A stretch of DNA of 64,000 bases from Paracyclopina nana (lineage: Eukaryota > Arthropoda > Copepoda > Cyclopoida > Cyclopettidae): assembly GCA_019096065.1 (NCBI GenBank), contig JAGUCH010000005.1:1674001-1738000 (forward strand), given 5' to 3'. Positions 57,401 through 59,129 of this stretch are shown here, one piece after another. Below the pieces are notes generated by a model. The model was not told the DNA's origin and did not search any database. It saw only the letters and a program-made list of their open reading frames with translations. Both the position numbers and the translations under genes were made by a program. Each line of letters opens with the position of its first letter. Position 1 is the stretch's first letter.

Positions 57401-59129
57401 CTTGAGGTCAATAGTCAGAGTCTCGTTCCAGGTGGGATTCAAGTTGGCCTTTATTGTTTTGGTCTTCTTTTTGCTGGTGTCTCCGCACTCCGGAATGAGC
57501 TTGATCTTCACGTACGGATCGCTGGCACCGTTCGGGTCCATGGGAATGAGATTTTTGGCCTCGAGGACTGCATTCGAATGAAATATTATCTTGCGAGGAG
57601 GAAAAAGGGTGAATTACCTTGGCAAATTAGTTTGGTTCCCGAGCAGTTTATTTTCAGGTGCACTCGACCTCTTCGCTCGGTGTGGTCACATCCACACAAG
57701 TTTGGCACCGATTCCTGGCATTTCTTGTGTACGTTCATATCACAGGCTAAAATTGAGAGAAAAGTAGGTAGTAGAGAGTCTGGATATTGTGCGTTATGCT
57801 AATAAGAGGGAGAATAGTGCATAGAAGGGAGCAACAGGTAATGGTTAAATTAAAGGGCGAAATTGTGTAGATTACATCCGCATTTCAGGCCTTGGTCCTG
57901 CAATCCGTACAAAACGCCTCCACAGTGGTCGCAAAAGCAACTTCCAGGCTTATACGTGTGAACTTTCCAAGCATGTGGGAGTTGGTTCTGAATGAAGAAG
58001 GGCGAAAAAGAAATAAGACATGCACACAGAAAAAGCAACATGCAAATTGAATGAAGGGCAAAAAGGGTGACATTTAGCAGAAGACCACAAGTGAAAGCAT
58101 TCCTTGTTATGTAATAGTTAAAATGCATCAGCTGACTCTTGCTTGAAACTACACATGGCAAGTGTATGAATAATTTCTTGTTTGCATCTTCGAAGCTCAT
58201 GTGGCATAAATATAAGATGCTGGCTGGGTTTTGAATCCACAGGGAAAAAGTGGCAGCATCCACTATATTAGATTTCCCAGAGCATCTACTGGCAGAATAT
58301 AATTTTCTCCTGAAGCTGATGAAGCTTCCTTCTCACACGTATGACCTCATTTAGATAAGGCTCCCCACATTTTCTAGTGGCACAAAATTGAGACGCATGT
58401 CCTTCTGTTGGGAGCTTGCCCTCAACAGCAAAGAATAACGTTATTGTAAGAAATGCAGGAGAAGATTGATGGTCCTGCTGCTCAAACTGAGCTTTCATGT
58501 ACCTTGTGAGGAAGAAGGAGGCCTTGCACTAATACGTAGGTGGATTAAGAGAGGAGAGGAAAAAACTTTTTTGATGGCGTTTATGCCAGCAGTTGGCCCA
58601 TTCCATAGGCTTTGCCTGCTGATGGAAATTCTGACGGCAACACTAACCAAACTTGGTGACAGGTGAGCAAAGAACTCAAGTCGAAAAAAGGAAGAAAATC
58701 AAAGAGTCAGCTGATGCGCGCACACGCAGTAAACAAAAGTCAGCTGATGCGCGCGCGAGTTAGTGATCGTGATGGCAACAGCACAAAACATGCAAATTAC
58801 CATCGCATTTCAGGCCTTGATGGATAAGACCATAAAGTAGGGATCCACAATGGTCACAGAACGCGGGACTAGCATATGTGTGGACTTTAAACTTGTGCTT
58901 CGTTCGGTTATCCTAAGTTTTTAAATCATTGTTATTGCATCGCAACAAAAAAAACTTGGAGAAATTGAGAAATATTTTCTTGTAGGTGTGGAAAATCAAA
59001 ACAAATATACTCACATCCGAGTCGGCACCTTGATCCACACCAGGACAAACAAATGTGACAAACTCATGGCACCGCTTGTGTACGACAAAGCTGCAGACTT
59101 GGCATTGGTATCCCTGCTTTCCAAAGCCC
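54306..59129 (-). CDS. Conventional protein kinase C (partial, 5' end not in window), with alternative exons
   Basis: This is a Ca2+/diacylglycerol-activated Ser/Thr kinase of the cPKC class. Exons in transcript order: 59015-59129 (second half of C1[13 protein letters not shown]), 58801-58912 or 57876-57987 (alternative first halves of C1B), 57618-57746 (rest of C1[10 protein letters not shown]), 57182-57567 (C2, [30 protein letters not shown]), 57092-57121 (10-residue microexon), 56566-56871 (hinge, kinase start GKGSFG, AIK), 56088-56179, 55826-56027 ([26 protein letters not shown]), 55190-55519 (VDWWAFG), then 54660-54848 or 54306-54458 (alternative V5 tails). All junctions are GT/AG and in phase. 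Catalytic Lys, Asp and activation-loop Thr are present. The order C1-C1-C2-kinase defines conventional PKC. The pseudosubstrate and first half of C1A were not found and probably lie beyond 59.3 kb or outside the window. The first exon here starts with a G completing a likely Trp codon. Confidence 0.93.
54660..54848 (-). other. PKC proximal C-terminal exon (V5 type 2, acidic hydrophobic motif)
   Basis: This phase-0 exon encodes 62 residues and a stop. It aligns with the other tail: AENFDAQF, turn motif LTPIS, hydrophobic motif FANFEY, then NPAF and a Ser/Arg-containing extension. Glu replaces the Ser/Thr of the hydrophobic motif, as in atypical PKCs (FEGFEY). It is preceded by TTAATTTCAG. No AATAAA or strong donor is visible between this stop and the distal exon. 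Confidence 0.86.
57092..57121 (-). other. PKC 30-nt microexon in the hinge
   Basis: The acceptor TTCTAATCCAG and donor GTAAGC bound exactly 30 nt encoding [10 protein letters not shown], phase 0 on both sides. It lies between the C2 exon and the exon that starts the kinase domain. Being a multiple of three, it can be skipped without changing frame. Confidence 0.75.
57876..57987 (-). other. PKC alternative C1B exon, form B (divergent)
   Basis: The 112-nt exon starts in phase 0 and ends in phase 1. It encodes [20 protein letters not shown], then [13 protein letters not shown] and the first base of the next codon. Zinc ligands (His, Cys-x2-Cys, Cys) are kept. It aligns along its whole length with form A at 58801-58912. 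Its acceptor is TTCATTCAG and its donor GTAATC. Confidence 0.87.
58801..58912 (-). other. PKC alternative C1B exon, form A (canonical)
   Basis: The 112-nt exon starts in phase 0 and ends in phase 1. It encodes [20 protein letters not shown], then [13 protein letters not shown], almost the vertebrate conventional PKC C1B sequence. It has the same length and phases as form B. Its acceptor is AACTTAG and its donor GTAATT. Confidence 0.9.

Follow-up and report, generated by a model that had tools for sequence, protein, structure and literature searches.

A tandem pair of putatively mutually exclusive C1B exons in a conventional PKC gene

In tandem duplicated exon substitution, adjacent homologous exons of equal phase are used alternatively in transcripts, and exactly one of them is needed. 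The exon pair described here has the same arrangement in the genomic sequence. The vertebrate PRKCB gene is a conventional PKC gene with alternative homologous terminal exons, beta-I and beta-II; these lie in V5 and not in C1B, and a V5 pair is also present at this locus. A 2022 survey includes a PRKCB event that we take to be the beta-I/beta-II C-termini. The affinity of the C1B domain helps set which membranes, and how much diacylglycerol (DAG), activate conventional PKC. The same survey placed Drosophila Pkc53E among the genes with tandem duplicated exon swaps, with the exons unspecified (PMC9741552). In the available part of a study of Pkc53E, isoforms with different C1 domains are described, and differing DAG affinities were proposed for them (PMC10318518). 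The available part of PMC11540305 contained nothing on exons. A search of the open-licence PMC literature for PKC, mutually exclusive exons and C1B together found no paper.

A presumed Pkc53E fragment accounts for the printed amplicon sizes (289, 262, 359 and 332 nt), and on it both isoform primers fall where C1B starts. The primers printed in the available part of PMC10318518 translate to EPFTYAG (isoforms B/F) and WQNVTF (isoforms C/E). The C/E amplicons are printed there as 282 and 356 nt, and 356 against 359 nt is a difference of one codon. From the primer translations and the placement of the amplicons at the C1B start, the fly appears to have alternatives for the part of C1B in which the pair reported here differs. 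The original prediction had supposed that a duplicated C1B exon pair may be new. This view is not supported, since the fly isoforms are already described as varying in C1 and the B/F and C/E primers encode different C1B starts.

The window, the whole 64-kb stretch of DNA that was analysed, carries a conventional PKC gene on its minus strand, with exons 2–9 and two alternative last exons within 59129–54306. All features of the window given below are on this strand. The first coding exon is located outside the window at L009:1784-1992, with a start codon chosen in this analysis. The assembled kinase is 677 residues long when it ends in V5b and 689 when it ends in V5a. Exon 1 encodes RQRKGALKKKN, which is pseudosubstrate-like. 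Exon 2 (59015..59129) encodes the second part of C1A and the linker, has AG/GT borders and a continuous spliced frame, and is the constitutive 5′ partner of the C1B exons. Exon 4 (57618..57746), the constitutive 3′ partner, encodes the common second half of C1B with the last four zinc ligands and the start of C2. The C2 domain is encoded by exon 5 (57182..57567), and the kinase domain by exons 6–9 (56871-56566, 56179-56088, 56027-55826 and 55519-55190), both as judged by the spliced frame and Pfam. The Pfam scan of the whole protein was made on the 3c/V5b form and gave C1_1 (two stretches), C2, Pkinase and Pkinase_C above the cut-off; for the 3v form, the C1B piece was scanned. The order of parts is that of a conventional PKC: pseudosubstrate, C1A, C1B, C2, kinase and C-terminal tail. 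Like Pkc53E, which is a conventional PKC with isoforms differing in the C1 region, the gene has alternatives in this region, and it is probably the counterpart of the fly gene. The genome gave 80 matches to Chitin_bind_4, a cuticle domain, in support of an arthropod host; a COX1 search of the assembly gave no match.

Exon 3 is present twice. The canonical copy, exon 3c (58801..58912; form A of the original prediction), and the variant copy, exon 3v (57876..57987; form B), are each 112 nt long and encode a C1B half-domain of 37 codons plus 1 nt. Both run from phase 0 to phase 1, with AG before and GT after the exon. The two exons are adjacent and homologous, equal in length (112/112 nt) and phase, and exactly one of them preserves the frame, as in tandem duplicated exon substitution. 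The pair had been predicted to align over its full length. The homology of the two 112-nt exons stands, and the alignment needs a single-codon gap in each exon; it then has the same residue at 22 of the 36 aligned codons, and the ungapped base identity is 51/112. The C1 zinc motif has eight ligands. Exon 3 encodes four of them (H, C, C, C), all kept in 3c and 3v as predicted, and the remaining four are supplied to both forms by exon 4.

The spliced model agreed with the predicted coordinates, lengths, phases and stop positions, and with the claim that exactly one C1B exon is needed. With 3c or 3v alone, the frame is open to the V5 end. With both exons, a stop follows at residue 158, the 13th codon past the first C1B exon. 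With neither, exon 4 reads P-V-I-stop, its fourth codon being TGA, and translation would end at residue 112. Because double and null transcripts meet an early stop, only single-exon transcripts are expected to give a functional kinase, and mutually exclusive use of 3c and 3v is strongly implied by the frame. We assign a probability of roughly three in four (0.76) to the reading that 3c and 3v are tandem-duplicated, mutually exclusive C1B exons that tune the response to DAG or membranes. On this reading, an old tandem duplication copied the 112-nt exon that encodes the first half of C1B. A transcript containing both copies, or neither, would be frame-shifted to an early stop, and the choice of exon would tune the response of the kinase through C1B. 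We infer that each exon is used in splicing, that the choice between them is under regulation and that the C1B response is changed. The early stops would equally serve a frame switch, in which joint inclusion or skipping deliberately lowers the PKC level and the protein difference is secondary. Any 112-nt exon would suffice for such a switch, however, and the protein sequence of the variant need not be kept, so that this explanation is very improbable.

The domain matches showed that one form is near-canonical and that the other is altered in the membrane-contacting loops, which bears out the original prediction. Together with exon 4, 3c scored 129.7 bits and 3v 85.7 bits against the whole chain of PKC beta (3pfq), scores which include a weaker C1A match; over the C1B stretch they scored 97.0 and 63.1 bits. 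PKC C1B domains were the best match among solved structures for both forms joined to exon 4. In Pfam C1_1, the same pieces scored 74.2 bits (3c) and 55.8 bits (3v) against a cut-off of 26.5. Exon 3v alone was absent from the 28 genome-wide C1_1 matches at E<=0.001, among which exon 3c was present. Exon 3v might therefore be read as a relic of exon duplication that is spliced rarely or never: it is the more diverged copy by Pfam score, it escapes the genome-wide search when taken alone, and it is without the usual HX12C spacing. We consider this reading quite unlikely. The frame of 3v is open, its AG and GT are intact and its acceptor is rich in pyrimidines, and the zinc ligands and identical residues were kept despite differences at 21 of 36 third positions, where 9–10 identical residues would be expected neutrally.

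This expectation comes from comparing the two exons with simulated drift. The base differences between 3c and 3v were 13, 10 and 21 of 36 at codon positions 1, 2 and 3, respectively. The NG86 method gave a dN of 0.41, with dS not estimable, and LWL85 gave a dN of 0.39 against a dS of 1.32. Under a free-drift model with an equal count of base differences, the mean was 11.2 identical residues and the maximum 19, and none of 20000 runs reached 22; 0.4% of these runs retained all four zinc ligands, and 28% were stop-free. A two-branch model allowed only silent changes on the canonical branch and left the variant branch free, with 3000 runs per row. The rows with n=70 and n=80 match the third-position divergence and gave the 9–10 residues above, with 0/3000 runs in each reaching 22, and the chance of a stop-free exon with all four ligands was at most 0.001. 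Milder rows did reach 22 identical residues (23% of runs at n=30 and 1.9% at n=40), at mean third-position differences of 12.5 and 15.1 against the 21 observed. These neutral models are simple: they treat one sequence pair, make half of the changes transitions and put all drift on the variant branch, and the residue alignment is optimised. The residue identity lies beyond that of the neutral runs matched to third-position divergence, so exon 3v has probably been maintained at the protein level over most of its history. Taken together, the alternative C1B exons are a real pair, very probably under selection.

The DAG-sensitive C1 domain has an HX12C spacing. The 3c form has both the HX12CX2C start and the Gln-Gly motif. 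The 3v form departs from this start with HX13CX2C and retains the Gln-Gly motif in LQDQGLKC. Its first lipid-binding loop has one extra residue and the usual Ser-Pro-Thr is replaced, and in the second it has Gln-Asp where 3c has Ile-His, beside the conserved Gln-Gly. In the available part of PMC9110374, Gln-Gly is described as a motif of DAG-sensitive C1 domains; Thr242, Leu251 and Gly253 form hydrogen bonds to the ligand; Gln257 contacts DAG and stitches the loops via Tyr238 and Gly253; and the hydrophobic rim consists of Leu250, Trp252, Leu254, Val255, Met239 and Pro241. When the exons were mapped by us onto this PKC delta numbering, 3v retained Tyr238, Leu251, Gly253, Leu254 and Gln257. In our mapping, 3v has K-P-G-S-C for residues 239–242, Gln-Asp at 255–256 and Val for Leu250, and 3c has Ile-His at 255–256 and Ala for Thr242; Tyr replaces Trp252 in both. 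Because the five residues are kept, the C1B with 3v should fold and may still bind DAG. The natural reading is that 3v gives a working but altered C1B, which would be expected to recruit the kinase to membranes less strongly or with a different selectivity, with C1A unchanged.

The C1B domain also takes part in autoinhibitory packing. Both exons could be used with the variant C1B serving another contact, such as a protein partner or autoinhibition, and not lipid. The changes cluster in both membrane loops and place an acidic residue next to Gln257, which would suit such a contact as well. Against it, Gln257, Gly253, Leu251, Leu254 and Tyr238 are the residues of DAG binding and loop stitching in the available part of PMC9110374, and all are kept. 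This explanation is rather unlikely, though less so than a relic exon. If the tuning of the lipid response is true, nature would have provided a test of how affinity is tuned, in the form of a spliced-in C1B whose first loop is longer and whose second loop is altered. Such a variant would also be relevant to the differences in DAG affinity proposed for the Pkc53E isoforms in the available part of PMC10318518.

The alternative terminal coding exons, V5a (54660..54848) and V5b (54306..54458), encode the hydrophobic motifs FANFEY and FAGFSF, respectively. With the preceding exon 9 residues, V5a scored 23.8 bits and V5b 51.5 bits in Pkinase_C, for which the cut-off is 20.9. The V5a tail weakly matched those of PKC beta and PKC iota, at 27.3 and 25.3 bits, respectively. 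The hydrophobic motif of V5a carries Glu where V5b has Ser, a feature shared by the PKC iota tail aligned to it (FEGFEYINP). The C1B pair and the V5 pair together predict four kinase forms.

Compared with the fly, the likeliest alignment gives the Pkc53E C/E form a Trp at the same place as in 3v, where canonical forms have Phe, within the six residues available. In the same alignment, C/E also resembles 3v in having one codon fewer before the first His, although other placements are possible. Overall, the fly C/E sequence lacks one residue, whereas 3v does not, and the comparison covers six residues of C/E. The Trp and the missing codon hint at a common origin of fly C/E and 3v. The C1B exon pair seems to be one more example of a known arrangement and is not wholly new; it has its own variant loop. 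A broader proposal is that the C1B pair is ancestral to many arthropods, Pkc53E and this gene included, that 3v is a conserved DAG-desensitised form, and that the V5 tails extend this to four kinases differing in the activating tail as well as in the lipid sensor. We put this forward tentatively, as possible but doubtful.

The pyrimidine content from −23 to −4 differed strongly among the 11 acceptors of the gene, being lowest at 3c (0.40) and highest at 3v (0.90). With this content, the 3v acceptor should be usable. We guess that the contrast could favour 3v by default, and that a helper for 3c or repression of 3v would then be needed. Simple splice-site crowding needs a short intron, and the intron between 3c and 3v is 813 nt; crowding is unlikely as the control since this is too long.

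Two direct copies of a 20-nt element lie in this intron downstream of exon 3c (58702-58721 and 58735-58754), and a complementary element lies upstream of 3v (58125..58144). Its complementarity is perfect over 16 nt for one copy and 90% over 20 nt for the second. These complementary elements are built on GTCAGCTGATGC. An inverted repeat of at least 16 nt occurred in 1 of 1000 shuffled introns. The 16-mer AAGAGTCAGCTGATGC had 29 genome matches at one mismatch or fewer, three of them in the 3c–3v intron, against 0 for the reversed pattern. At the 18 loci examined, which cover 19 of the 26 other matches, the near flanks differed by eye from those in the intron. The intron and its repeat part had no second genome match when the most common words were skipped in the search. 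In a docking/selector system, a selector beside each alternative exon pairs with one docking site. The layout here is different: both like copies lie downstream of 3c, and their complement is found within that intron too. We do not claim the inverted repeat as an exon switch, because the word recurs across the genome and the elements are not arranged as docking and selector sites.

Among the other AAGAGTCAGCTGATGC matches, the flanks at L013, L018 and L022 (G000 C1, C2 and C5) looked alike, and they perhaps form a small repeat family. Some matches adjoin GCGCGC or GTTTAC. Eleven copies of GTCAGCTGATG were found on one strand, loosely in tandem, at about 577-1068 of L020 on the minus strand (G000:C4:9470800-9472000), and L021 and L025 contain several copies of the same word.

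With the C2 exon as a hook, no relative was present among 46 viral-contig and 163 genome-contig pattern matches. The N-terminal half of the 3v form was also used as a query, and the best genome matches were the exons of the gene itself. The best match elsewhere (C3:10365239-10365529) is another PKC gene, in which one C1B copy was seen in 10 kb by a motif filter and by eye. An origin of 3v from a paralogue was rejected on these two results. This second PKC gene (L030:4201-4700; G000:C3:10365239-10365666) appears to be of the novel type by its C1 sequence and has HNYHRFTWCDHC in the first loop of C1B.
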